Virus record (IMG/VR): IMGVR_UViG_3300032665_000073
Location: 1 to 41,949 of that record
DNA from: a virus
Reading direction: 5' to 3' (one strand)
DNA length: 41,949 nucleotides
Each line of letters begins with the position of its first letter. Positions within the stretch are counted from its first letter, which is position 1. The translations under genes and the position numbers were made by a program. Shown piece by piece: positions 5,988-28,764 of this stretch. The notes under the pieces are model-generated. The model saw nothing but the letters and a program-made list of their open reading frames with translations, was not told the origin of the DNA and did no database searches.

Positions 5988-8693
5988 ATGGCTCTGGTGT
6001 TATATGATCGTGTCCAAGAGACTACGAGCACTACTGGTACAGGGTCAATAACCCTAGCTGGTGCTGTATCGGGTTATCAATCTTTTGCTGTTGTTGGCAA
6101 TGGTAATACTACTTACTACACAATTCTTAATGGAACTCAGTGGGAAGTAGGTATTGGTACGTACTCAACTACAGGACCTACTTTAGCTCGCACAACAATT
6201 CTTTCCAATTCAAATGGAAATACATCGCCAATTAATTTATCTGGTGCATCAAACGTATGGTGCGACTACCCAGCAGAAAAGTCAGTTAATTTAGATGCAA
6301 ACGGCAACGCCAATATTAGCTATACACCTAATACAACTACATCAGTTGGCAAACTAAACGTAGGTGACAATACATATAGCCAGTCTTTAACTGGGCAAAT
6401 TGCTATTTTTGCCGGGGCCGATACTATATCAAGCAATATTTATCTTGTTAATACAAATAATACAAGCAACACAGCATATTCCTCTATTGTTACGGGCGCA
6501 AACAACTACGCTAGTATTTATATGGAGATGGGAACAAATAGTTCCTTATATAGTTATTCGGCAGCCGGATATGCAAACAACGCATTAAATCAACCAAATA
6601 ATTCTTTTTTACAGGCTTATGGCTCTGATTTGGTTTTGTCTACATGGACATCCAACGCAATCCATTTTGTACAAAATGCCTCTTCTGCAACATCTGACTC
6701 AATGACGTTGTTTGCTGACGGCGGCGCTTCTTTGGGCGGCCTTGGCGACCCCGGCATTGGAAACATAGCAATTAATAACGCTGTTGTTGGGTTTACTTCT
6801 ATTACATCAGCCGCTGGAACAACTGTATTAACTTCATCATCTACACAGGTTCAGGCAGTTACTGGCTCTACTACACAAACTATTCAGTTACCACAAGCAA
6901 CCACTTTGCTTAAGGGTACTTTCTACACAATTTCTAATGCTTCTTCTGGTCTTGTAACAGTTAAAGACAATGCGGGAACTACATTAGAAACAATACCTTC
7001 TGGTGGCGCAGCCCAGTTTTTATGTATAGCAAACGGTACTTCAGCTGGTACTTGGGGTATTCGTGTTTTTGCGGCTTCCAATACTACTTGGGGTAATACA
7101 GCACTTAACTATACAGGTAACATTACTGGCGCTACTTGGCAAGGAAATACGATTGCCTATAACTATGGTGGTACAGGGTTAACTACATTTACTGCAGCCA
7201 ATAACGCACTATACTCTACATCTGCTTCTGCTTTAACCGCAGGTACTTTGCCAGTTGCTGCTGGCGGTACTGGAGCTACGACTCTTACTGGGTATGTTTA
7301 CGGTAATGGAACGTCAGCAATGACTGCTTCCACTACAATCCCTACCAGTGCTTTATCTGGTAATTTTGTAAGTACGTTTAGTGCAGGTACTACTGGTTTT
7401 ACTCCTTCTACAGCAACTACTGGAGCAGTAACTTTAGCCGGTACTTTAGGCGTTGGTAACGGCGGTACTGGTCTTTCTTCAACACCGACAAATGGTCAAA
7501 TTGACATTGGTAATGGTACAGGGTTTACTCGTTCAACCATCACAGGCACAGCAAGCCAAGTAACAGTAACAAATAGTGCTGGCGGCATTACATTAAGCTT
7601 ACCATCACCTATTAACGTTAATACTAGCGGTAGCGCTGGTTCTGTAACTAATGCAGTTACATTTAATAATGGCGGGGCTGGTGCTGCTTCTGGGACTACA
7701 TATAACGGTTCTGGTGCAGTTACTGTTTCCTATAATACTATTGGTGCTCAAGTTGCTGGTACTTATGTTACTTCTGTAACAGGCACTTCTCCAGTCAGTT
7801 CTTCTGGCGGCACAACTCCTGCAATTAGTTTAGCTTCAGGCTACGGAGATACACAGAATCCCTATGCTTCTAAAACTGCTAATTACTTTTTAGCAGCCCC
7901 TAACGGTTCAGCTGGTGCCCCTACGTTTAGAGCTGTAGTAGCAGCAGATATACCAACGCTAAATCAAAATACAACTGGTACTGCATCTAACGTAACTGGT
8001 ACCGTAGCAGTAGCTAACGGTGGAACTGGAGCAACTTCGGCATCAGCAGCTTTAACTAACCTTGGCGCTTATGCTGCATCAAACCCATCTAACTACACAA
8101 GTAATACACTGACAGCTGGTACTGGTATTTCTGTTAGCGCATCCACAGGTGCTTCAACAATTACAAATACTGGCGTAACTTCTATTGTTGCTGGTACTGG
8201 CATTTCTGTTTCTGGCTCTACTGGCTCAGTTACTATTTCCTCTACAGCATCTGGCGCAACAATTACAGGCACTACCTCTAACACAACTTATTATGTAGTT
8301 GGAACCTCATCTACTTCTGGTACTTTATCTACAGCATCTATTTCAAACACCAACGTAGTTTCTTATAATGCTTCTACCGGCGCTTTGTCTGCAGTATCTC
8401 ATGTGTCTTCTTCTGATGAACGTTTAAAAACAGACTGGGTTAATTTAAGTACAGATTTTGTAGACCAATTAGCCGATGTTAAGCACGGTACTTTTCAGCG
8501 TATTAGCAGTGGCGATCGTGAGGTTGGTGTAACAGCACAATCACTTAAAGAAATATTGCCAGAAGCTGTAGTAGCAGATGAAGAAGGATATATGTCGGTT
8601 AACTATGGCGCTGCAGCATTGGTTGCCGCTATTGAATTGGCTAAAGAAGTTAAAGCACTACGGGCTGAAATTGCTGCGCTAAAGGCTAAGTAA
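5988..8693 (+). CDS. Tail fibre with C-terminal S74 self-cleaving chaperone
   Basis: A 901-residue fibre. The N-terminal 110 residues (MALVLYDRVQETTSTTGTGS, WEVGIGTY, LARTTIL) form a head-binding-type module. The middle is a long Ser/Thr/Gly array with repeated GGTG motifs (AAGGTGATT, GNGGTGLSS, ANGGTGATS). The last ~95 residues are a peptidase S74 intramolecular chaperone: SSSDERLKTDW near residues 807-817 contains the Ser/Lys region where such domains cut themselves off after trimerisation. EVGVTAQSLKEILPEAV and a C-terminal coiled coil (IELAKEVKALRAEIAALKAK) follow. Start follows TAAGGAG. Confidence 0.9.
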   Translation: MALVLYDRVQETTSTTGTGSITLAGAVSGYQSFAVVGNGNTTYYTILNGTQWEVGIGTYSTTGPTLARTTILSNSNGNTSPINLSGASNVWCDYPAEKSVNLDANGNANISYTPNTTTSVGKLNVGDNTYSQSLTGQIAIFAGADTISSNIYLVNTNNTSNTAYSSIVTGANNYASIYMEMGTNSSLYSYSAAGYANNALNQPNNSFLQAYGSDLVLSTWTSNAIHFVQNASSATSDSMTLFADGGASLGGLGDPGIGNIAINNAVVGFTSITSAAGTTVLTSSSTQVQAVTGSTTQTIQLPQATTLLKGTFYTISNASSGLVTVKDNAGTTLETIPSGGAAQFLCIANGTSAGTWGIRVFAASNTTWGNTALNYTGNITGATWQGNTIAYNYGGTGLTTFTAANNALYSTSASALTAGTLPVAAGGTGATTLTGYVYGNGTSAMTASTTIPTSALSGNFVSTFSAGTTGFTPSTATTGAVTLAGTLGVGNGGTGLSSTPTNGQIDIGNGTGFTRSTITGTASQVTVTNSAGGITLSLPSPINVNTSGSAGSVTNAVTFNNGGAGAASGTTYNGSGAVTVSYNTIGAQVAGTYVTSVTGTSPVSSSGGTTPAISLASGYGDTQNPYASKTANYFLAAPNGSAGAPTFRAVVAADIPTLNQNTTGTASNVTGTVAVANGGTGATSASAALTNLGAYAASNPSNYTSNTLTAGTGISVSASTGASTITNTGVTSIVAGTGISVSGSTGSVTISSTASGATITGTTSNTTYYVVGTSSTSGTLSTASISNTNVVSYNASTGALSAVSHVSSSDERLKTDWVNLSTDFVDQLADVKHGTFQRISSGDREVGVTAQSLKEILPEAVVADEEGYMSVNYGAAALVAAIELAKEVKALRAEIAALKAK

Positions 8694-13457: not shown

Positions 13458-15875
13458 ATGCCATTACAAAAACTACAATTTCGTCCGGGCGCTAATAGAG
13501 AAGGCACAATCTATAGTAATGAAGGCGGTTGGTATGATATGGACCACGTACGTTTTCGTTCTGGACTTCCTGAAAAAATTGGCGGCTGGCAGCAGCTTTC
13601 GCCCCAGCAATACAAAGGTATTTGCCGTTCTATTTGGGTTTGGTTAGATGGCGATGCTGGTGTAGGAACACTTTATATTGGCGTAGGTACAAGCTCCAAG
13701 TACTATATTTACTCGGCAGGTGCTTATAACGATATAACTCCGCTTATCCAAACCGACACCCTAACAAACCCGTTTAGCACCCAAAATACGTCAAATGTTG
13801 TTACCGTAACTGATGCTTCATACCTTCCTAATGTGGGAGATTACGTTATATTTTCCGGTGCTAGCTCAGTAGGCGGTTTAACTATTAACGGTGAATATAT
13901 TGTTACAAACGTAACTAGCGCTACTACTTACCAAATTACTACTACAAATCCTGCAACATCAACTGCAACTGGTGGTGGTACGGTAACTGTTCAATACGAA
14001 TATCCATCAGGTAATACTATTTATTCCGTTGGTACTGGCTGGGGTGCAGGTCCTTGGGGCGGTCCACTTATACCTGTAGTTGTTAGTTTAGGCAATAACC
14101 CTTTTGCTACTACATCTTCGTCTGGTACAGTTACAGTAACTCAAACTGCTCATGGTATGACTAACGGTACTTATGTTGCCTTTACAGGAGCTACTGGGTT
14201 TGCTGGTATTTTAGCTAGTACACTAAACTCAACTTTTGTTATTTCTGGCGTAACCACTAATACCTATAACATCACACTACCAAGCTCTTCTGTTGCAACT
14301 GCTACTACTTCTGGTGGTGGCTCTTCTGTTGTTGTAACTGAAGGTTCTGGTTCTCGTGGTTGGGGTACTGCGTACTCTTCTGGTATTGGGCAGCAGCTCC
14401 GTCTTTGGTCTAATGATAACTTTGGTGCTGACCTTGTTATTGCCCCACGTGGTGGTCCTATTTTTTATTGGCAAGATTCTACAGGTGTTGGTGTTCGTGC
14501 CCAATATCTAAGCAGTGTTGCTAATACAACCACAGCACTAACTGATGCATCTACATTTAGTGGAAGCGCAACTTCAATTACTGTTACTTCGGCTAATGCG
14601 CCTTATATCTACCCATACATGGTGATTACTGGTACTAACTTGCCTGCAGGGACTAAAGTAGCTTCTAACTATATTACAGGTGCAACAACTGTACCAATTA
14701 CGACAACAACTACTGGCGCTAGCTCTGGTAACTATAATTTTTCTTATGCTGGTGCTTATGTGCCAACGTCTACATTCCAGGTAATTACTTCAGAAGTACA
14801 AGAATTTGTTATTGCTTTTGGCGCTAATAACTATGTACCTGGGAATGCAAGCTCGCCGTTTAACCCAATGCTAGTTCGTTGGGCAGATCAAGCAAATGCT
14901 TTCCAATGGGTACCAGAATTAACTAATCAGTCTGGCGAATATACTTTAAGTAATGGTTCATTCATTATGGGTGCACGTGCAACCCGCCAAGAGATTTTGG
15001 TTTGGACTGATTCAGCTATTTACTCGATGCAGTATATCGGTGCTCCTTATGTTTGGGGTTTCCAGATTTTGATGGATAACATTTCCATTATGTCGCCTAA
15101 TTGCATGATTACTGTAAATAATATTACCTACTGGATGGGTAAAGACCGCTTCTATATGTATGACGGTACAGTAAAAACATTGCCCTGCTCATTAAAACAA
15201 TATATTTTTGAAGACATTAATCAAGACCAAGCCTATCAAGTATTTGCCGGTGCTAATGAAGGATTTAATGAAGTATGGTGGTTCTACTGCTCTGTAGATG
15301 GAAATGGTGGAACTCGTGCTAATCCTAATACTTCAGTTGATAAATACGTTATCTATAACTACCTAGATAATTGTTGGTATTACGGCACAATGGCAAGAAC
15401 TGCTTGGTACCAAACTGGGGTACAACAATACCCAATCGCTGCCGACTATAACAACAGACTTTTGGACCAAGAAGTAGGATGTGACGATAATTCAACATCA
15501 ACTACTATGCCTATAACTGCCTATATACAATCATCTGATTTTGACATTGGTGATGGTCAGCAGTTTGGGTTTGTATGGAGAATCTTGCCTGACGTAAACT
15601 TTAATAGTTCAACAGGTAACCAGCCATCAGTAACGATGCAAGCTATTCCACGTCAAAACTCTGGTAGTCCATATACATCTGCAGATAACCCACAAGTTCA
15701 AAGCCCACAAAACTTTACCAATATCCCTGCCTATACAGTCAACCAATTTACTGGTCAGGTCTACACCCGTCTGCGTGGTCGTCAAATGGCATTTAGGATT
15801 GAATCTACAGACATTGGGGTAGCTTGGCAGCTAGGTGCACCCCGTATTGATATTAGACCTGACGGACGAAGATAA
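13458..15875 (+). CDS. Tail nozzle / packaged-DNA stabilisation protein (P22 gp10-like)
   Basis: An 805-residue protein. The N-terminal signature FRPGANREGTIYSNEGGWYD...HVRFRSGLPEKIGGW is typical of the phage stabilisation protein family that includes P22 gp10, functionally comparable to the T7 gp12 nozzle, forming the hub below the adaptor ring. The middle (residues ~90-280) has Thr/Ser-rich Ig-like blocks (SGTVTVTQTAHGMTNGTYVA), an insertion relative to a minimal nozzle. The C-terminal half resumes with WADQANAFQWVPEL, YWMGKDRFYMYDG and AFRIESTDIGVAWQLGAPRI. It is separated from the adaptor genes by the fibre and lysis genes. Confidence 0.8.
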   Translation: MPLQKLQFRPGANREGTIYSNEGGWYDMDHVRFRSGLPEKIGGWQQLSPQQYKGICRSIWVWLDGDAGVGTLYIGVGTSSKYYIYSAGAYNDITPLIQTDTLTNPFSTQNTSNVVTVTDASYLPNVGDYVIFSGASSVGGLTINGEYIVTNVTSATTYQITTTNPATSTATGGGTVTVQYEYPSGNTIYSVGTGWGAGPWGGPLIPVVVSLGNNPFATTSSSGTVTVTQTAHGMTNGTYVAFTGATGFAGILASTLNSTFVISGVTTNTYNITLPSSSVATATTSGGGSSVVVTEGSGSRGWGTAYSSGIGQQLRLWSNDNFGADLVIAPRGGPIFYWQDSTGVGVRAQYLSSVANTTTALTDASTFSGSATSITVTSANAPYIYPYMVITGTNLPAGTKVASNYITGATTVPITTTTTGASSGNYNFSYAGAYVPTSTFQVITSEVQEFVIAFGANNYVPGNASSPFNPMLVRWADQANAFQWVPELTNQSGEYTLSNGSFIMGARATRQEILVWTDSAIYSMQYIGAPYVWGFQILMDNISIMSPNCMITVNNITYWMGKDRFYMYDGTVKTLPCSLKQYIFEDINQDQAYQVFAGANEGFNEVWWFYCSVDGNGGTRANPNTSVDKYVIYNYLDNCWYYGTMARTAWYQTGVQQYPIAADYNNRLLDQEVGCDDNSTSTTMPITAYIQSSDFDIGDGQQFGFVWRILPDVNFNSSTGNQPSVTMQAIPRQNSGSPYTSADNPQVQSPQNFTNIPAYTVNQFTGQVYTRLRGRQMAFRIESTDIGVAWQLGAPRIDIRPDGRR

Positions 15876-18739: not shown

Positions 18740-21418
18740 ATGGGTGGCGGCGGATCTAGCGGTGGTGGTGGTGGAACCACACAATCAGTATCAAATTCTT
18801 ATAGTAGTTTATCTCCTTGGATAGCTCCTTATGTAACATCTATGCTTGGTGCTGCGCAGCAACAAGTATTTAATACCGACCCCACAACTGGTCAAATTAC
18901 CAGTATGAACCCATACCAAGCGTATGGTTCTATAAATCCACAAACGGGTCAACAGTATGGTATGTCTACTAGTGATATGGCTGCTGCTAATGCTTCTGTT
19001 GCACCATTTAGCCAATTACAAAATCAATCATTTCAAGGTGCCGGTAATTTACAAACCCCCGGTCAATTTGGTCAAGCTACTGGCGCTGCTGGTATGGGGA
19101 CAATGCAGTCATTAATGGCTGGGCAAAATTTAGCTAATCAGTCCACCAATCCTAATGCGGTTGGTGCATACATGAACCCTTACATCCAGAATGCCTTAAA
19201 TCCGGCATTGCAGTTAGCTAACCAACAGTACGGAATTGCTGGTACACAAATGGCTGGACAAGCTACTGGTGCTGGTGCTTTTGGTGGTTCTCGTAATGCG
19301 CTACAACAAAATTTAAACGCACAAAATCAGATGTTGGCGCAAAACCAATTAATCGGTAATGCCTATAACACTGCATATACTAATGCACAGAACCAAATGA
19401 ACACCGTAGCTAATGTTGGCTTACAAGGTGCTAATCAAGGTATTGCTGGAGCTAATACTTTAGCTAATATCGGCACAGGTCAATTAGGTGCACAACAAAA
19501 TATACTTAACCAACAAAATACATTGGGGCAACAACAAACTGCTGGTACACAAGCTATTATTAATCAGGCTATGCAGAACTACCAGACCGGTCAGCAGTAC
19601 CCAATGCAACAATTAACTAACCTTAAGAACTTGGCTAGTGGTATTCCTGTTACAGATACAACACAAACTATACAACAAGCTGCACCATCTACTGCTAACT
19701 TAATTGGCGGTGCTGGTATGACTTTATTGGGTGCTGGTTTAGCCGGAAGCGGCGGTAGTAATGTAACTATTAATAATCCTGCACCAGTAAAGTCTGCCCA
19801 AGGTGGCATTATGAAGCTCCAAACCAAAAAGTATTCTAATGGTGGTATTGGTTCTATCTACCGCAAGGCGCTTAATGATCCTGCATCAGTACCAAACCAA
19901 AGCTTACAAGATGGTACGATTAATGGTTTACCTGCGCAGTTAGTTCAGGCAATGAAACTTAATGAGCAACAACAGGCTCAAGCACCTGCACAAGCCCCTA
20001 CATCTACTGTTATACAAGATATTGATGCCAAAGCTGCACAGCAACAAGCCCAAGAGCAACAGATAGATGAACAGAAGTTATTAGCTCAACTGCCAACCAT
20101 TATGGCTGACTTGAAAGTTGCTAGAGATATTGCTAAAGAAAAAGGCGATAAAGAAGAACTTAAAGCTATTGATACAAAGATTTCAGAAATCTCTATGTTG
20201 GCACAACGTGCTCAAGAGAAGATGCAAATGCAACCAGCGCAGCCTCCACAAGTTGCTCAAGGTCCTTTAGCTGCGCCTGCCCCACAAGGTATCGAAGCGG
20301 CTATGGCTCAACAGCAGCAAGCGGCTCAACAGCCACAACAAATGGCGCAAGCTGCCCCACAACAAGCCCCTCAAGGTATCGCTCAGTTTTATAAAGGTGG
20401 CGAGGTAAAGCGCTATGAAGTGGGTGGTGTTCCTTTAATTTCTCCTGATATTACAAATTGGTTATCTGATAAAGCAAATACCATAGGAAGTGCATTGCAA
20501 AATGTAGGTAATATCAAACCAGTAATTAGATCAGTAGCGGGTGTAGATAATACTGCCCCAACTACTTGGGCAGATGAGGCGGACCAACCTATGACCCCAG
20601 GTAGAGCAACCCCAGAAAACCATATGACAACCGCAGAAATTGCTGCGGCTAACCCACCTAAAATTACTATTGGACCCCGTGGTGGACCTAGTGTAAAAGC
20701 ATCTGATGCCGCAAAAGAACTAAACATTGCTCAGTACGATGTTAAAGGTGCTACCAACGATGTTACTAGCATGATTAAAAATTGGTCTGATATGTTAATG
20801 GGGCAGTACAATAAAGATACTTCCTTACAAGATATTGGTCGTGGTCTTATGCATGGTGGCGCTCGTTGGGCTGGTTATACTGGTGCTGGTACTGGACTTG
20901 GTCAAGGCATTGCTGGATTTGGCGAAGGTTACGCACAAAGCTTAGAAGCAAGCGAAGCTAAAAAAGATAAGATGCTAACGCAACTTATGAGCCTTGGTTT
21001 ATCTGGCGCTCAACTTAAAATGGAAGCTGCTAAACTTGGTATTGCCCAAGAAGAACTTAAGGCTAAACTACCAGTACTTGCAGGACAAGCTGCGCTGTAT
21101 AGGGCTAAAGCAAATGCTCCGATTGGTGGTGTTGGTTTAGTAGCCCCCGGCCCAATTAACCCTTCAGATTTGATGAAGATTGACCAAAGATTTGATGCAC
21201 TTAAAAATAACCCTAAGTCAGATCCAGCGTTCTATAATAGCTTACCCCCTGCAGTTCAGAAGCAATTAGATTTGCCTAAAGATTCAGCAGGGTATAAAAC
21301 AGGTATGCAGAACGTAGAAAAAATTGTTCAGGACCAAAAGGATACTTTTATCCAAAGAGCACATAGAGAAGGGGCAAGATATAAAACTTCTCGAAGCTCT
21401 AGTGATTTAGACGAATAA
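18740..21418 (+). CDS. Large Gln/Ala-rich candidate ejection protein
   Basis: An 892-residue protein opening MGGGGSSGGGGGTTQSVSNS. Residues ~40-330 are Asn/Gln/Ala/Gly-rich with helical character (NPALQLANQQYGIAGTQMAG, AFGGSRNALQQN). Then come GGIMKLQTKKYSNGG, a Gln-rich coiled-coil stretch (~400-520) and FYKGGEVKRYEVGG. The C-terminal third is mixed helical with QDIGRGLMHGGARWAGYTGA. Start follows TTAGGAGG overlapping the upstream stop. Size, composition and position between two other candidate ejection proteins suggest an internal virion/DNA-ejection role comparable to T7 gp15. This is inference, since no defining motif exists. Confidence 0.65.
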   Translation: MGGGGSSGGGGGTTQSVSNSYSSLSPWIAPYVTSMLGAAQQQVFNTDPTTGQITSMNPYQAYGSINPQTGQQYGMSTSDMAAANASVAPFSQLQNQSFQGAGNLQTPGQFGQATGAAGMGTMQSLMAGQNLANQSTNPNAVGAYMNPYIQNALNPALQLANQQYGIAGTQMAGQATGAGAFGGSRNALQQNLNAQNQMLAQNQLIGNAYNTAYTNAQNQMNTVANVGLQGANQGIAGANTLANIGTGQLGAQQNILNQQNTLGQQQTAGTQAIINQAMQNYQTGQQYPMQQLTNLKNLASGIPVTDTTQTIQQAAPSTANLIGGAGMTLLGAGLAGSGGSNVTINNPAPVKSAQGGIMKLQTKKYSNGGIGSIYRKALNDPASVPNQSLQDGTINGLPAQLVQAMKLNEQQQAQAPAQAPTSTVIQDIDAKAAQQQAQEQQIDEQKLLAQLPTIMADLKVARDIAKEKGDKEELKAIDTKISEISMLAQRAQEKMQMQPAQPPQVAQGPLAAPAPQGIEAAMAQQQQAAQQPQQMAQAAPQQAPQGIAQFYKGGEVKRYEVGGVPLISPDITNWLSDKANTIGSALQNVGNIKPVIRSVAGVDNTAPTTWADEADQPMTPGRATPENHMTTAEIAAANPPKITIGPRGGPSVKASDAAKELNIAQYDVKGATNDVTSMIKNWSDMLMGQYNKDTSLQDIGRGLMHGGARWAGYTGAGTGLGQGIAGFGEGYAQSLEASEAKKDKMLTQLMSLGLSGAQLKMEAAKLGIAQEELKAKLPVLAGQAALYRAKANAPIGGVGLVAPGPINPSDLMKIDQRFDALKNNPKSDPAFYNSLPPAVQKQLDLPKDSAGYKTGMQNVEKIVQDQKDTFIQRAHREGARYKTSRSSSDLDE

Positions 21419-21426
21419 GGAACACC

Positions 21427-24400
21427 ATGCCAAAGGTAACTATACCGGGGGTTGGAGTAGTTAATTACCCCGATGCCATGTCTGATAAAGACATCATGGC
21501 CCATGCAGAAGATTTACGCAGTAAAGCATTATCAGGAAATAGATTAGGTTTAGATTTATCTTATGACCCAAGAGAGCAAGGTATTGGGCAGCTTATTTCT
21601 GGTGGTGTAAAACGTAGCTGGGAAGGTTTTAAAGGCGATGTGCTTGAGGGTTTACCCGCATTAGGTGCTTCTGCGCTTGGCTACAACGAAACTGCTAAAA
21701 ACTTGTTGGATCAATACCAGCAACGCATGGCTCAAGTAGAGGCAGAAAACCCTGCAGCTTTTTCATCTTATAAACAGGTTCGTGGTGTTGGTGATGTACT
21801 TCCATTCTTGGCCGAAAGTAGCGGGGAATTAGTACCGACTGCAGCTTCATTTATTGGTGGCGCTGGAATCGGCACACAGATTGGTAAGCAGGTAGCTAAG
21901 CGTGGTCTGGCTTCTGTTATTGAGAAGAATCTTGCCGAGCACATTGCCAAACGTGGATTAACTGAAGAAGCTGGTGCTGCATTACAGAAACGTATTACTG
22001 ATAGCGCTATTGCTAAAGGTGCTGAAATCGGTAGCAAGACTGGCTTATGGGGTTCATCTTTAGCTACTAACGTGCCTGATACGTTCCAGCAGATTTATCA
22101 AGATACTGGCGAACTGCACCCCGGTGTGGCATTAACTATTGGTCCTCTGGTTGCAGCACTAGATACATACTTACCTGAAAAGATATTACACCAACTTGGT
22201 TCGGCTGGTAAAACACAGCTAGCTGCTGAGTTACTTAAGAAGTCTAGTGTAGTTCCTGTTCCTTTTAAAAATGCGTTTATTAGCGAAGTATTAAAAACTA
22301 CTGGCGGTGAGGCATTAACTGAAGGCGGTCAGCAAGTATTACAGAATCTAGCGTCTACATTGTCTGGTGACAAGCAAGGCTTTTTCTCCCAGCAAAACAT
22401 TGACAACATTATTACTAGCGCACTTAAAGGTGCGGTTGGTGGTGCTTCGCTCGGTGCCCCCGGCGCTGCTCTGCAAGCTCGTCAAATTGCTAAGCAAACA
22501 AAAGCTGCTGCCGAACAACAAGCTGCTAATCAAGCACAACCCCCAGCACCCCCTGTAGCTACTGGTGAAGCTCCACTTACCCCAGCACAAATTCGTGAGC
22601 AAAAACAACTAGCTGCACGTCAACAGATTTATGGTGATTTGTTTGGTGAACCTATACCAGAAGGTCAACGTTTCCCTATTGCCCCAGAATCTCGTCCTGA
22701 ATGGATTAGAGCGCAACAAGCTGCAGATATGGAAGCTGGTAAACCTTTCACTACGCAAGCTATTCGCCAGCCTGTAGAAGGACAACAAGAGCTTAATTTA
22801 CAAGGCGCACCAGTACAAGGCGAACTTGATTTACGTCCAGCAGAAGCTGCACCTGCGCAATTTAAAACTGTTATTGATGAAGAGTCTTTGAAAGGAACTG
22901 GTCTCAGCAAGCAATCAGGATTCTTTAAACAATTAGTAAACAAAGACATAACTGTTCCTGAACAGCAACAACAAGTAGCTGCTACGTTAGCTAAAGTAAG
23001 AACTAACCCAAATTTAGCAGAATCGACTAAGATAGCTATTGAACGTGTTGCTATGAATGCATTTGGCGCATTAGCACAACAACAAGAGATGTTTGGACCA
23101 AAAGGTGGGATTTTAAAAGGAGCCGATTATGGACGAGTACAGCCTAGACCTAACGCTCCAACAAGTGGAGCAGGCATTGAAGTTCCTAGCGAGCAGGTAC
23201 CAAACGAACCTACCGGAGGAGCTGCAACATCTGAACCATCAGGAATGGGACCAACTGGAATACCTACTTCTGTGTCTGGAGCAGGAGAAGAAACACAGCG
23301 TAATCCATTAGTAGAGGCAGAAACATCCGAAGATTTTGCAACTATACAAAAACATATAGATGACAACTTACAAATTAAAACCACACCACCGGCTGCACCT
23401 GTTGCGCCTCGTAGTGAAGCTCCCGTTGCCGTTAATCCTGAAGAACAATTTGACGTACCGGATACTCAATTCACACGGGCGTTAAAGAAAACTATTGCCG
23501 CTACTAGAGATAGACTTGCAAAAGAAACTAATCCAGTAAAGCAAGCGTTTTACAAAAACGACATTGAAGAAGCTTTAGGCGAGTTACAAAGAGTAGCTAA
23601 CCAAAATGCTAATGCCCCCATGCGGGAGACTATTAAGTCTAAACCCGGTGCTGACGTTGGTCGCCTTATGGATATGTTTGGCCCACAGTTATATGGAAGC
23701 CCTAAAAACATAACTGCTGTTTCTATAAAAGAAATGTTGCAAAACTCTTTTGATGCTATTAAAGGCATGATAGAGCAGGGGGAAATGACTTCTGGCAATA
23801 TTGAAATTAACATGGACGAAACTAACCGCACTATATCTATTAAAGATGATGGTAGCGGTATGTCACCAGAAGTATTAAGTACTACATTTTTAACAATTGC
23901 CGGTACTAAAAAAGAAACTGAGTTTGGGTCTGGTGGTTTTGGTGTTGCTAAAATGTTATTCTTGTTTGGTAACAAAGAAGTTAAAGTTACTACATTACGG
24001 GATGGCAAACTTAGTACTCTTTCCGCTACTGGTGAAGAACTTAGTAATGCGCTTAGAAACCCAAATGATCCTTCATTAGCACCTAATATACAAGTTCTTG
24101 ATGTTGATGAAACTAACGGTCAAGCCGATGCTTTGTTTCCTAATGGGCATGGAACTCTTGTAACAGTAACAGTGCCTACAGAATATACTGATAATCAAAC
24201 AGGTAATATTGAGCCAATAGCATTTAAAGATAGTAAGTATGACTACGATGTTCTAAGATACAGCCCTTTATTTGCCAATATAAATGTTACATTTAATGGC
24301 TCTACTGTCTACAGTATGGGTTCAGACTTTGAAGCTGATGAATACAATACGTTTGTAGACGCTAAGTTTAATTGGGGTACTGCTCGTATATACGTATCAA

Positions 24401-27400
24401 ATGAAGAAAAAGATAAGTACGGTAGCAATACACACGTTCTTTCTAATGGTTTATGGCAGTTTAGTAAAGACCTAAAGCTAAACCCAATGGAGATGTTTGG
24501 TCCTAATATCCCACATCGGTTCTTTATAGATATTGTATCTAATGTAAAACCTGATGAGGCGGGGTATCCATTTCAATTTAACCGTCAAGGATTTACAAAA
24601 GACGCAGAAAAAGATCTGCAGTTAATCAACAACTATATTACATTACACTATAAGCAAAAAGATTTCGCTAGTACAGCGGCTAGTTTTGGTTCTGTTCAGT
24701 ATCTTACTTACGATGGTAAAACAGTTAAGACAACAACACAAACTGATTTAGTACCTAAAGCTGCAAAAAATAAAACTGTAACTAATAAGTCCCTTGCCGT
24801 TGGTTCTAAAGTAGAAGTAAAGAATGGTAAGTTAATAGTTAATGGGAAAACTGTACCATTGGTAACTCCTGAAGATTTAAAAAGCGCTACTATAGATACT
24901 GATGATTTAAAGATTCCACAGAATGAAGTTAAAGCTGACCAAGTAATGATTCATGATAACTTGGAAATCATTGGTACTGCTAGTAACAAAGATCGTCTAT
25001 ACAATATAGGTCAAAAACGTGATGCTATTTATTACAAACAAGAAGACATAAGAGCAGAAATTGACCAATTAACATATGGTTATATTGATAGTACAGGTAA
25101 ACGTGTTCAACCTTCTGATTCTAATAGTAGCAAAATTGCTAAACTTAATAAGGAATTAGTAAAACTTAATGGCGAAGATGCTATTTTAAGACAAAAGCAA
25201 GATGCGTTACATAACGAGGCTAAAAATGTATTTACTCCTATTACAGAATTAGCAAGAGAAAAATTTGGTCAACGTTTTGATGACTTTATGTTTCAAATTG
25301 GCAATACGTTTATGGCATTGCGTGATGGTGTTGCTAAACTCATGCCACCTAGAACTGACAAGTATAAGCCAAGAGATTATAAAGAACTAAGCAATGTAGC
25401 TGTTGGCGTGTCTTTTGATAAAGAATATCGTGGTGTAAATATAACATTACCTTTTGAAGGTATGTATATCAATCCTGCATTCCCTGAATATATTGGGACA
25501 CCAGAAGAAGCTGCTATTGGTATGTTTGGTACTATGATCCATGAGTTAGGTCATTTTCAAGAACGTAATCATGCGGCCGATTTCCCTGCGGAAATGCAAC
25601 GTATTATGATTCATTTGGAAGCTAACCCTGATTTTGATTTAAGATGGTTAAAGTACAAGTTTATTGAAGAAGTAAGAGCAAACAAAGATATTATTGATTA
25701 CTTAAATGAGGTAGGATCATATGCAGATAACAGGGCTATTGGACAGCGTTTCAAGGATGGCAGCAACCAAGCACGAAACGAAACTGTTCCTTCAAACGTT
25801 TCTCAAGAACGGGGTGAACGACGGGGCGGACAAGGATTACCTAGCGAAGCTGGACCAAGCTATCAAGCTATTGGACGAAAGCAACAGCCTACAGGAGTTC
25901 CACGAGAAGATACATCACCAGCAACTGTAGGTACATTCCGTAAGGAAAACACCCCTGCCGTAGAAGCTAAAGAAGCTAAGTCTATCTTTGATAGTTTTGC
26001 TGACCGTGTTGAACAATCGGGTGTATTTACCCCGGCCCGTGCAAATAAATTGCATGAGCTTATTAAAAACGGTATTTTCGGCAATGCACTTAAAGCTGCC
26101 TTATGGTGTTTACCTGTTAAGCCATTAACTGAAGAAGCTAAACGTGCTGGCTTGCCTATGGCATCAAAGTTCAATGAGATTATTGACGAGCACTCTGGTT
26201 ATGTAAATGGCCTTAACCAAAGCATTGAACCGCTTATTAAACGCTTAGAAGACTGGGCTAAAAAGATAGGTAAAAAGTTTGTTGATGCATTTAATGATGT
26301 AGTCTACGACAGTACTATTTCTAAAATTGATCCAACTAAACCTAAGAAAGACGATACAAGTCAAGAAGATTACGACCGAGTAAAAAACAAGTACCTTAAG
26401 TTAGACCCAATGGGCAAACAACTTTACGTTCAAATGCGCAATGCCTATGGTGCTATGTACCAAAATATTCTTGATTCTATTGAAGACCGTATTAATACAT
26501 TAGTTACTGATCCTAAAACACGTTTGCAAATGAAGCAGGACGTGTTAGAAAAGTTAGCTAAACGTGGTAAAATTGACCCGTACTTTGCATTGACTCGTAA
26601 AGGTAAATACTGGTTATCTTATAACTTAGGTAATGAACCTTACATTGAGGCATACGAGACTGAGCGTGAACGTAACAAGCAATATGATTTAATTGCTAAA
26701 GAAGGTGCCTCAGACTTATCTAAGTTCAGCCAGCTTTCAGAATATAAGTATAGCCGTGCTCCATCAGGTTCGTTTGTAAACAAAATGCTTAACATCCTCG
26801 AGATTAATAAGCCAAAGAATCTAAGCCCTGAAGCATCTAAACGCTACGATGAATCTGCCGACGAAGTAATGCGCTTGTACATCAGCACGTTGCCTGAAAC
26901 TTCTTTTGCTAAGTCTTTCCAAAAGCGTAAAGAAACCCTTGGTTTTAAGAAGGATGCTATCGAGGCACTACGTGACCGTATGTACAACACAGCTCAACAA
27001 CTTGGTAGGATGAGATACTCAGCAAAACTTAATAAGTTATTAGAAGAGATGAGAGAGTACTCTAAGCTTGCTAGCCGTGGAATGAGTACAGAGAAAGATG
27101 CTACCGGTAAACCTAAAGCTATTCCTAAAATAGATAACAAGGTAATTAACGATTACATTAGCGTGTTTGAAAAGCATGTAGAGTCAATTAATAATCCTAA
27201 TATTAGCTCTGTATCTAGGATGCTTAATACGCTCGGCTTTAACTATTTGCTAGGTTTTAACGTATCCTCTGCTCTTGTTAACATGGGTCAGGTTCCTATG
27301 ATTGTTGCACCGTTCTTAGCTGGTGAACATACATGGGGTCAAACTATGGGTGCTATTAATAATGCCTATAAGACCTATATGAATAGCGGCTACGGCAAAG

Positions 27401-28764
27401 ATGTTCGTTCTACTAGAATGATTGGCAGCAAAGAAATAGTTAAGCAAAAAGGTATGCCTTCAATTACTAACTATGGTGCTGATACCGCAATGGGTAAGAA
27501 GTACGCTACGTTAATTGAAGAAGGTCAGAAGCTCGGTCAGTTTAACCGTTCACAGTTCCATGATGTATTGGAAGTAGATGGTCGAAAAGACTGGGGTAGT
27601 ACTTTAAATGCTGCTTCTAGCTTTGCATTCCATCATGGTGAGCGTATGAACCGTGAAGTATCTATGATGGCTGCCTATGACCTGCAGATGGCTAAGCTCA
27701 AGAAGCAAGGTAAAACAGGTAAAGAAGCTGAAATTGAAGCAGCTAAGTATGCGTTTAACGTAACCGAAATGACTAACGGTGGTGTATCTGCCGCAAGTGC
27801 TCCGCTTATTGCCAAGAATAGCTTGGGTAAAGTCTTGTTCATGTTCAAACGCTATGGTGTTTCAATGTACTACATGTTATTTAAAGTAACACGTGATGCA
27901 CTTAAAGGTGAAAGCCCAGAAGTACGTAAAGCCGCTATGAGTCAGATTGCTGGTGTTTATGGTACGTCTGCACTCTTTGCTGGTTTACAAGGTATTCCAA
28001 TGTTTGGTGTTGCTGCTATGGTGTATAACTTGTTTGCAGATGATGACGAAGATGACATGGAGACAGCAACTCGTAAGTATGTAGGTGAGTTTGCCTATAA
28101 GGGTATGTTGAACTATGTTACTGGCGCTGAGATTGCATCCCGCACTAGCTTGAGCGATTTAATTTTTAGAAGCAATCCATCATCTAGTTCACAAACATTT
28201 GAACAAGGTATGCTAGAAACTCTTGGTGGTCCAGCATTTGGTGTAGCTTCTAAAATTAGACGTGGTTTACAGTTTATGAACGAAGGTAACATGCAGCGTG
28301 GCGTGGAGACTGTACTTCCATCAGCTCTTGGTAACATCTTTAAAGCTTATCGCTTTGGTACTGAAGGGGCCAAGAGTTTACGTGGCGATCCAATTACAGA
28401 AGACCTTAGTGCAGCTAGTATTGCAGCTCAAGCATTGGGCTTTGCTCCAGCAGAATATGTTCGCCAATTGGAAATTAATAGCCGTTTAAAAGGTGTTGAA
28501 AAAACTATCCTGCAACAGAAGTCTAAGTTACTCCAACAATGGAACGTAGCTAACCGTATGGGTGATGGTGAAGATGCTGCAAAGTATAAGCAGAAGTTAA
28601 AAGACTTAAATGCCAAGCATCCAGACTTAGGTATTACCGAAGATACTTTTGACGCATCGCAAAGAGCCTTTGAAGCAGCTACCAAGCGTACTGTAAAAGG
28701 GGTTCAGTTTAGTCAGAAACTCTATGACGAGATGATGCGTAACGCTGCCGAATACGACCAATAA
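21427..28764 (+). CDS. Giant ejected virion protein with GHKL ATPase and HELGH metalloprotease motifs
   Basis: A 2445-residue protein, the largest in the window, at the end of the virion operon (where T7 has gp16). Seen in order: an N-terminal IPGVGVVNYPDAMSDKDIM segment; Gly/Ala helices to ~340; Pro/Gln linkers; then a GHKL (Hsp90/MutL-type) ATPase with N-box E769..N773..D776, DDGSGM at 807-812 and GSGGFG at 834-839. A zincin motif HELGH follows at 1372-1376. The C-terminal ~900 residues are helical, with hydrophobic stretches and an acidic DDDEDDMET run. Multi-domain giants like this are called polyvalent proteins. No lytic transglycosylase motif is visible. Start follows AAGGA. Confidence 0.85.
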   Translation: MPKVTIPGVGVVNYPDAMSDKDIMAHAEDLRSKALSGNRLGLDLSYDPREQGIGQLISGGVKRSWEGFKGDVLEGLPALGASALGYNETAKNLLDQYQQRMAQVEAENPAAFSSYKQVRGVGDVLPFLAESSGELVPTAASFIGGAGIGTQIGKQVAKRGLASVIEKNLAEHIAKRGLTEEAGAALQKRITDSAIAKGAEIGSKTGLWGSSLATNVPDTFQQIYQDTGELHPGVALTIGPLVAALDTYLPEKILHQLGSAGKTQLAAELLKKSSVVPVPFKNAFISEVLKTTGGEALTEGGQQVLQNLASTLSGDKQGFFSQQNIDNIITSALKGAVGGASLGAPGAALQARQIAKQTKAAAEQQAANQAQPPAPPVATGEAPLTPAQIREQKQLAARQQIYGDLFGEPIPEGQRFPIAPESRPEWIRAQQAADMEAGKPFTTQAIRQPVEGQQELNLQGAPVQGELDLRPAEAAPAQFKTVIDEESLKGTGLSKQSGFFKQLVNKDITVPEQQQQVAATLAKVRTNPNLAESTKIAIERVAMNAFGALAQQQEMFGPKGGILKGADYGRVQPRPNAPTSGAGIEVPSEQVPNEPTGGAATSEPSGMGPTGIPTSVSGAGEETQRNPLVEAETSEDFATIQKHIDDNLQIKTTPPAAPVAPRSEAPVAVNPEEQFDVPDTQFTRALKKTIAATRDRLAKETNPVKQAFYKNDIEEALGELQRVANQNANAPMRETIKSKPGADVGRLMDMFGPQLYGSPKNITAVSIKEMLQNSFDAIKGMIEQGEMTSGNIEINMDETNRTISIKDDGSGMSPEVLSTTFLTIAGTKKETEFGSGGFGVAKMLFLFGNKEVKVTTLRDGKLSTLSATGEELSNALRNPNDPSLAPNIQVLDVDETNGQADALFPNGHGTLVTVTVPTEYTDNQTGNIEPIAFKDSKYDYDVLRYSPLFANINVTFNGSTVYSMGSDFEADEYNTFVDAKFNWGTARIYVSNEEKDKYGSNTHVLSNGLWQFSKDLKLNPMEMFGPNIPHRFFIDIVSNVKPDEAGYPFQFNRQGFTKDAEKDLQLINNYITLHYKQKDFASTAASFGSVQYLTYDGKTVKTTTQTDLVPKAAKNKTVTNKSLAVGSKVEVKNGKLIVNGKTVPLVTPEDLKSATIDTDDLKIPQNEVKADQVMIHDNLEIIGTASNKDRLYNIGQKRDAIYYKQEDIRAEIDQLTYGYIDSTGKRVQPSDSNSSKIAKLNKELVKLNGEDAILRQKQDALHNEAKNVFTPITELAREKFGQRFDDFMFQIGNTFMALRDGVAKLMPPRTDKYKPRDYKELSNVAVGVSFDKEYRGVNITLPFEGMYINPAFPEYIGTPEEAAIGMFGTMIHELGHFQERNHAADFPAEMQRIMIHLEANPDFDLRWLKYKFIEEVRANKDIIDYLNEVGSYADNRAIGQRFKDGSNQARNETVPSNVSQERGERRGGQGLPSEAGPSYQAIGRKQQPTGVPREDTSPATVGTFRKENTPAVEAKEAKSIFDSFADRVEQSGVFTPARANKLHELIKNGIFGNALKAALWCLPVKPLTEEAKRAGLPMASKFNEIIDEHSGYVNGLNQSIEPLIKRLEDWAKKIGKKFVDAFNDVVYDSTISKIDPTKPKKDDTSQEDYDRVKNKYLKLDPMGKQLYVQMRNAYGAMYQNILDSIEDRINTLVTDPKTRLQMKQDVLEKLAKRGKIDPYFALTRKGKYWLSYNLGNEPYIEAYETERERNKQYDLIAKEGASDLSKFSQLSEYKYSRAPSGSFVNKMLNILEINKPKNLSPEASKRYDESADEVMRLYISTLPETSFAKSFQKRKETLGFKKDAIEALRDRMYNTAQQLGRMRYSAKLNKLLEEMREYSKLASRGMSTEKDATGKPKAIPKIDNKVINDYISVFEKHVESINNPNISSVSRMLNTLGFNYLLGFNVSSALVNMGQVPMIVAPFLAGEHTWGQTMGAINNAYKTYMNSGYGKDVRSTRMIGSKEIVKQKGMPSITNYGADTAMGKKYATLIEEGQKLGQFNRSQFHDVLEVDGRKDWGSTLNAASSFAFHHGERMNREVSMMAAYDLQMAKLKKQGKTGKEAEIEAAKYAFNVTEMTNGGVSAASAPLIAKNSLGKVLFMFKRYGVSMYYMLFKVTRDALKGESPEVRKAAMSQIAGVYGTSALFAGLQGIPMFGVAAMVYNLFADDDEDDMETATRKYVGEFAYKGMLNYVTGAEIASRTSLSDLIFRSNPSSSSQTFEQGMLETLGGPAFGVASKIRRGLQFMNEGNMQRGVETVLPSALGNIFKAYRFGTEGAKSLRGDPITEDLSAASIAAQALGFAPAEYVRQLEINSRLKGVEKTILQQKSKLLQQWNVANRMGDGEDAAKYKQKLKDLNAKHPDLGITEDTFDASQRAFEAATKRTVKGVQFSQKLYDEMMRNAAEYDQ
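23129..23311 (+). CDS. Possible overprinted small gene inside the giant gene
   Basis: A 60-codon ORF lies one frame over (+1) within the giant gene. A stop in this frame (TAA at 23114-23116) is followed at once by AAGGAG and, six bases later, ATG at 23129, which is exactly the layout of a gene junction. The product looks like a real soluble helical protein: MDEYSLDLTLQQVEQALKFL, then LPEELQHLNHQEWDQLEYLL, ending EKKHSVIH. The giant protein's own frame here is a Pro/Gly/Ser/Thr linker. Expression is not shown. It may instead be a relic of a gene absorbed into the giant ORF. Confidence 0.5.
   Translation: MDEYSLDLTLQQVEQALKFLASRYQTNLPEELQHLNHQEWDQLEYLLLCLEQEKKHSVIH
25721..25930 (+). CDS. Second possible overprinted small gene inside the giant gene
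   Basis: A 69-codon ORF, again +1 to the giant gene. Its frame is closed by TAG at 25712-25714. AGGA (25713-25716) then precedes ATG 25721 by four bases. The product reads as amphipathic helices: MQITGLLDSVSRMAATKHET, LFLQTFLKNG, DYLAKLDQAIKLLDESNSLQ, ending EKIHHQQL. The giant frame across the same bases is a disordered Arg/Gly/Pro/Ser linker just after the HELGH domain. Translation is unproven and the ribosome-binding site is weaker than at 23117, but composition favours a true coding past or present. Confidence 0.45.
   Translation: MQITGLLDSVSRMAATKHETKLFLQTFLKNGVNDGADKDYLAKLDQAIKLLDESNSLQEFHEKIHHQQL

Follow-up and report, generated by a model that had tools for sequence, protein, structure and literature searches.

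A single viral polypeptide of 2445 residues combines an N-domain and a middle domain of the GHKL type, similar to those of Hsp90 and MORC, with a Wss1-like zincin placed after them. It is encoded in a 41,949-nucleotide stretch of DNA (positions 1 to 41,949 of IMG/VR record IMGVR_UViG_3300032665_000073; this whole stretch is called the window below). On sequence grounds, the recurrence of this two-part unit suggests a real ATP-driven machine for cutting proteins and not a chance pair of motifs. The polyvalent carrier is of a known kind, whereas the GHKL-zincin pair is new within the literature and libraries that we searched.

The giant gene and its setting

The gene lies on the plus strand, its frame is open throughout, and the ATG is preceded by AAGGAA, a good ribosome-binding site. 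The features on which the analysis rests are the following (residue numbers are those of the giant protein):

13458..15875, +, virion structural (head) protein gene, upstream of the giant (phrog_3287, E 9e-66)
18740..21418, +, 892-residue gene upstream of the giant, possible ejection protein (phrog_4287, "DNA ejection protein", at E 1e-4 only)
21427..28764, +, giant polyvalent protein gene, 2445 residues
21427..22566, +, N-terminal region, residues 1-380, common to other giants, some with unrelated middles
23608..25758, +, GHKL-zincin cassette, residues 728-1444, a swappable unit (comparison of L009 and L003; alignment A2)
23659..24126, +, GHKL ATP-binding domain, residues 745-900 (HATPase_c_3, TRAP1/HtpG profile, Foldseek to Hsp90/MORC)
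23728..23757, +, N box KEMLQNSFDA (E769, N773, D776), kept in 76 of 78 aligned members
23845..23862, +, G1 box DDGSGM, D807 in 78 of 78
23926..23952, +, G2 box/lid GSGGFGVAK, with G839, A841 and K842 in 78 of 78
24127..24696, +, middle (transducer-like) domain, residues 901-1090 (R1053 in YPFQFNRQGF; Foldseek alignments)
25228..25758, +, Wss1/WLM-like zincin domain, residues 1268-1444 (Wss1p profile match, weak Pfam, AlphaFold2 model)
25540..25572, +, zinc site HELGHFQERNH (H1372, E1373, H1376, H1382), from its conservation in members
26086..26523, +, LPD39 polyvalent-protein domain, residues 1554-1699 (Pfam PF18858, E 1.1e-11, above cut-off)
26578..28722, +, PLxRFG/DarB-like C-terminal region, residues 1718-2432 (NF032893, E 1.8e-111; phrog_10089, E 7e-78)

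At its N-terminus (residues 1-352) the protein is 51% identical to the giant of locus L003, and its N-terminal region is 24-31% identical to those of L013, L016, L017 and L018. A motif of the type FPDxM(S/T)xxxI is found N-terminally in some giants (window, L032, L047, L048, L054), not in all. The C-terminal region is the PLxRFG "tail-700" domain of NCBIfam and a DarB-like antirestriction family in PHROGs; about 740 C-terminal residues are common to the DarB-like/PLxRFG proteins of phages of about 60 kb (Skulduggery, PEp14, LASTA), and in Skulduggery the corresponding gene likewise comes after the virion genes, in the same order. Unlike DarB, the window protein has no adenine methylase or SNF2 helicase domain in Pfam.

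With LPD39 and this C-terminus, the polyvalent-protein reading given by the first-pass annotation is borne out. Like the polyvalent proteins surveyed in 2017 (PMC5512222), which are giant, multidomain, close to late virion genes and rich in LPD38/39/22, ART-PolyVal, ddrB-ParB and metalloprotease domains, the window protein combines LPD39, a length of 2445 residues, an ATPase and a protease with late virion genes as neighbours. The domains found across the giants that carry the cassette (LPD38, LPD39, LPD22, ART-PolyVal, ddrB-ParB, FtsK_gamma, SLT) are mostly from the same vocabulary (PMC5512222). Among 20 upstream neighbours at other loci, seven belong to head, tail or connector families and one more to a virion RNA polymerase family, with nothing in these 20 that contradicts a late-gene setting. 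From the position of the gene after structural genes and from its family membership, the giant protein is probably injected together with the phage DNA.

Some further observations concern the surroundings of these genes. A tblastn search found no relatives of the 892-residue upstream gene in isolate phages, and the window also contains, at 5988-8693, a tail fibre gene whose product has a chaperone domain of the S74 (endosialidase) type at its C-terminus. At another locus (L078:248-9826), a 3193-residue frame directly precedes the cassette giant, which places two giant genes in tandem.

The two halves of the cassette

The three GHKL motifs are present exactly where the first-pass annotation had read them, each occurring once (EMLQNSFDA at 769, DDGSGM at 807, GSGGFG at 834), and E769 itself is kept in 76 of the 78 aligned members. 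Pfam places HATPase_c_3 at residues 765-875 (E 3.1e-9, above cut-off). A single-sequence search of the PDB with the window protein gave no match and profiles were needed: the profile of 14 cassettes (A2) retrieves TRAP1, HtpG and Hsp90 at 1e-9 to 1e-7, with TRAP1/HtpG at 1e-9. The AlphaFold2 model of residues 728-1444 has a pLDDT of 82.8 and a pTM of only 0.66, so that the model does not fix how the domains are placed with respect to each other. Its Foldseek matches are to Hsp90 (2.6e-10) and to MORC2/3/4 (about 1e-9); with about 400-470 columns, these alignments run through the N-domain and also cover the middle domain. The N, G1 and G2 motifs thus lie in a predicted Bergerat fold, the hallmark of the GHKL superfamily, and sequence and modelled fold together strongly support a GHKL ATPase in the region of residues 745-900. 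In the middle domain, R1053 is invariant (80/80 members) and, judging from its position in the layout, could be the middle-domain arginine of Hsp90-type ATP hydrolysis.

The cassette shares with Hsp90, HtpG and TRAP1 the GHKL N-domain and the middle domain, but the matched proteins have no zincin and residue identity is about 14%; no match to the Hsp90 C-terminal dimerisation domain is seen, and the sequence profile covers the N-domain only. With the MORC/MutL clamps it shares GHKL plus transducer, but the window protein has no CW, MutL C-terminal or nuclease domain in Pfam. Of the viral structures, an unnamed 1404-residue UniProt fragment (A0A516L4L2, 5.6e-48 over 728 columns) matches far better than any other and apparently contains the whole cassette; Hsp90-like proteins, topoisomerase II and many RIIA proteins come next. 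T4 RIIA and RIIA-like proteins, a poorly understood counter-defence group (PMC7824862), have an N-terminal GHKL domain and match at 1e-8 in structure and at E 5e-8 by profile. That profile match is limited to 120 GHKL columns, the two RIIA sequences compared have no HExxH and RIIA is not part of a giant fusion; membership in this family was rejected. Defence-system models (PADLOC) gave only weak partial matches (REase_II, E 0.0016; PDC-S24, E 0.019). In two giants (L013 and L017) the G1 box reads DDATGM in place of DxGxG, for which reason ATP use may vary among members; the same two have a second HExxH downstream (HEFSH, HELTH).

In the zincin half, HELGH occurs once, at residue 1372, and H1372, E1373 and H1376 are kept in 80/80 members. 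Position 1382, the likely third ligand, is His in 76 and Glu in 4 of the 80. The full zinc site is longer than HELGH and reads HExxHxxxxxHxxxF, which is the pattern of the Wss1/WLM and YgjP proteases, a likeness that the searches described below support. A Glu at the same position (HEINHxxxxxE) was noted at loci L069, L078, L079, L085 and L086. In the PolyVal MPTases, the helix that follows supplies a Glu as third ligand (Iyer et al. 2017, PMC5512222), in contrast to the cassette, where the third ligand is a His (rarely Glu) six residues after HExxH.

Against the PDB, the zincin profile (A4) retrieves Wss1p first (5xbn, E 1.7e-4), followed by snake-venom metalloproteases, proabylysin and S. 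pombe Wss1. Pfam models match weakly and below cut-off, WLM in 6 and YgjP-like in 8 of 14 cassette members; the best WLM E-value among the 14 is 7e-4, WLM is not listed for the window, and the window zincin itself stays below cut-off. The domain is modelled with confidence (pLDDT 89, pTM 0.85), yet Foldseek returned no match with E below 1e-3, S. pombe Wss1 being among the best at a non-significant level (probability 0.57, TM 0.50 by target). The structural match that had been proposed as a check was accordingly found for the GHKL fold (Hsp90/MORC, 1e-10) and not for the zincin fold, and the zinc metalloprotease claim holds through its invariant HExxHxxxxxH/E site, the Wss1p, WLM and YgjP profiles and the confident model. 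Site and profile give the zincin assignment good support, fold search less. The cassette zincin differs from Wss1/WLM and YgjP-like proteins in being fused to a GHKL domain, and its family-model and fold matches are non-significant. Between the middle domain and the zincin, the window protein has an insertion of about 56 residues (about 1202-1257; window 25000-25200), which is absent from the closest relative, L001; L012 and L016 also have insertions there.

Linkage, exchange and stand-alone forms

The first-pass annotation had described HELGH as a separate motif; this part of its claim fell, since GHKL and zincin form one linked cassette. We scanned 2.9 million viral contigs with GHKL peptide patterns and clustered the proteins at 90%, the window included: an in-frame zincin lies downstream in 57 of the 59 distinct proteins, and the remaining two run off contig ends. 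In a separate scan with zincin patterns, all of the 75 ORFs found have GHKL upstream. Pooled, the scans give 80 distinct zincin clusters, that is, at least 80 viral proteins, with both active sites kept. The order from GHKL to zincin is the same in 150/150 ORFs, with a median spacer of 126 residues; these ORFs include loci fetched twice, and the cluster numbers are the counts to use. The identities of the GHKL and zincin parts covary across members (Spearman 0.81), and in 18 full-length giants nearly all invariant columns fall inside the cassette. Both domains are under purifying selection, with dN/dS between the window and L001 of 0.06 for the GHKL domain and 0.10 for the zincin domain.

The cassette also behaves as a unit with respect to its carriers. 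Three giants (L003, L005, L010) are 70% identical to the window protein over the C-terminal 940 residues, with N-terminal parts at 51% and 39%, and have in the place of the cassette a short HEATGH region without GHKL. This HEATGH belongs to the HExxxH type of polyvalent protease, which has been described (PMC5512222). Conversely, the giant of L009 has a cassette whose two parts are 59% and 56% identical to those of the window, and no detectable similarity elsewhere. Since the cassette is absent from relatives that share its flanks and present in an unrelated protein, the unit moves as a block.

Outside the giants, the pair is also found by itself. One phage contig (L089) encodes a 482-residue protein consisting of the GHKL and zincin domains alone, and megaplasmids of Pseudomonadota encode similar proteins in Pseudomonas sp. 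FeN3W (558 residues), P. silesiensis (a 565-residue frame), Bosea (811 residues), R. leguminosarum (an 800-residue frame) and M. extorquens AM1 (a 932-residue frame); such annotations as exist read hypothetical or ATP-binding. Compared as profiles, the phage cassettes and four stand-alone proteins align over their whole length, in 461 columns (E 2e-20), and the pair can hence do without a giant carrier. The existence of these forms speaks for the GHKL-zincin pair as an enzyme in its own right. At one Pseudomonas megaplasmid locus (L171:5980-8786) the stand-alone gene overlaps by 4 bases a 378-residue gene of no known family, a possible operon partner. An "ATP-binding protein" of an Agrobacterium plasmid (L173) was rejected as a relative, having no HExxH.

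Searches in isolate phages yielded RIIA-like GHKL domains and short GHKL records without annotation, but no cassette. In 289 genomes from a single bacterial class, the profile found nothing beyond short matches to the GHKL domain, for the most part in frames of about 570-630 residues. Of two genome-contig scans, the first gave no match and the second GHKL-only fragments. In the accessible main texts we found no protein with both GHKL and zincin; the one paper that names the two together does so for different proteins. None of the terms GHKL, Hsp90 and HATPase appears in the main text of the 2017 survey (PMC5512222). The view that the pairing had gone undescribed stands for this survey text, the accessible literature and the libraries searched.

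Proposed function and its alternatives

The explanation that we prefer, and to which we give an even chance, is an ATP-gated clamp protease which is packaged, ejected and directed in the host at a DNA-bound or defence protein. In this mechanism, the virion would contain the polyvalent protein and release it along with the DNA; inside the newly infected cell, ATP binding would bring the GHKL domains of two copies together and the dimer would close as a clamp on its substrate, for which a DNA-bound or defence protein is the candidate; the zincin would then cut the clamped substrate, and ATP hydrolysis would reset the clamp. Delivery with the DNA and the disarming of host proteins, both suggested by the first-pass annotation, are part of this inference. 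The cassette itself would be a movable module swapped between phage giants, like other early-infection effectors. We counted in favour of a clamp the GHKL matches to Hsp90, MORC and RIIA, since these are known ATP-driven clamps or conflict proteins. Against it we counted the slot in L003, which is filled by another metalloprotease without GHKL, so that a common self-processing role is possible.

Such a role, in which the giant is cleaved by its own zincin, either in the head or once ejected, and GHKL is an ATP switch that times the cut, is also what has been proposed for most polyvalent MPTases (Iyer et al. 2017, PMC5512222), and L003 keeps a metalloprotease, if of another type, in the same place. 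However, another HExxH lies outside the cassette in 41 of 80 carriers, against 1.4 expected, which implies more than a plain processing role for the cassette zincin, and the stand-alone forms have no giant to process; we regard this explanation as unlikely.

We hold about as doubtful a DNA-directed, MORC/MutL-like clamp whose Wss1-like zincin removes proteins from the phage DNA; this would be a special case of the clamp protease preferred above, with which it overlaps. Its appeal lies in the action of Wss1 and SPRTN on DNA-bound proteins, namely DNA-protein crosslinks (PMC5127644), and in the MORC matches, which at 1e-9 are as good as most of the Hsp90 ones; Wss1p is moreover the best PDB match of the zincin profile, and the C-terminus resembles DarB, which protects DNA in cis. 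Nevertheless, the Hsp90 matches are as good as those to MORC, and the cassette showed no recognisable DNA-binding element.

Giant ejected proteins must pass the tail channel, and this passage, together with the fact that the best sequence and fold matches are to the Hsp90 family, would fit a chaperone: the GHKL part would refold the giant after the narrow ejection channel, while the zincin would trim misfolded copies or free domains. A chaperone system of phages (MoxR-vWA) in which the cochaperone is fused to a peptidase has been described (PMC7824862). We consider this less probable again, as close relatives without the cassette (L003) presumably still work and the stand-alone forms have no such client. 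Finally, the idea that the two motifs stand together by chance in so long a protein, conceivable because HExxH is short and frequent in polyvalent proteins (PMC5512222), is refuted for practical purposes by the two-way linkage in about 80 distinct proteins, the fixed order and the invariant active sites.

Taken more broadly, the cassette may define an undescribed family of ATP-gated zinc proteases, acting as an injected effector in phages and as stand-alone enzymes on bacterial megaplasmids, a proposal that we rate slightly below an even chance. The stand-alone forms of 480-560 residues make the GHKL-zincin pairing directly testable. Bacteria are known to carry out ATP-dependent proteolysis with AAA+ machines; if the proposal is true, selective proteolysis would here be powered without an AAA+ unfoldase, and the phage proteins would represent a new class of early-infection effector.
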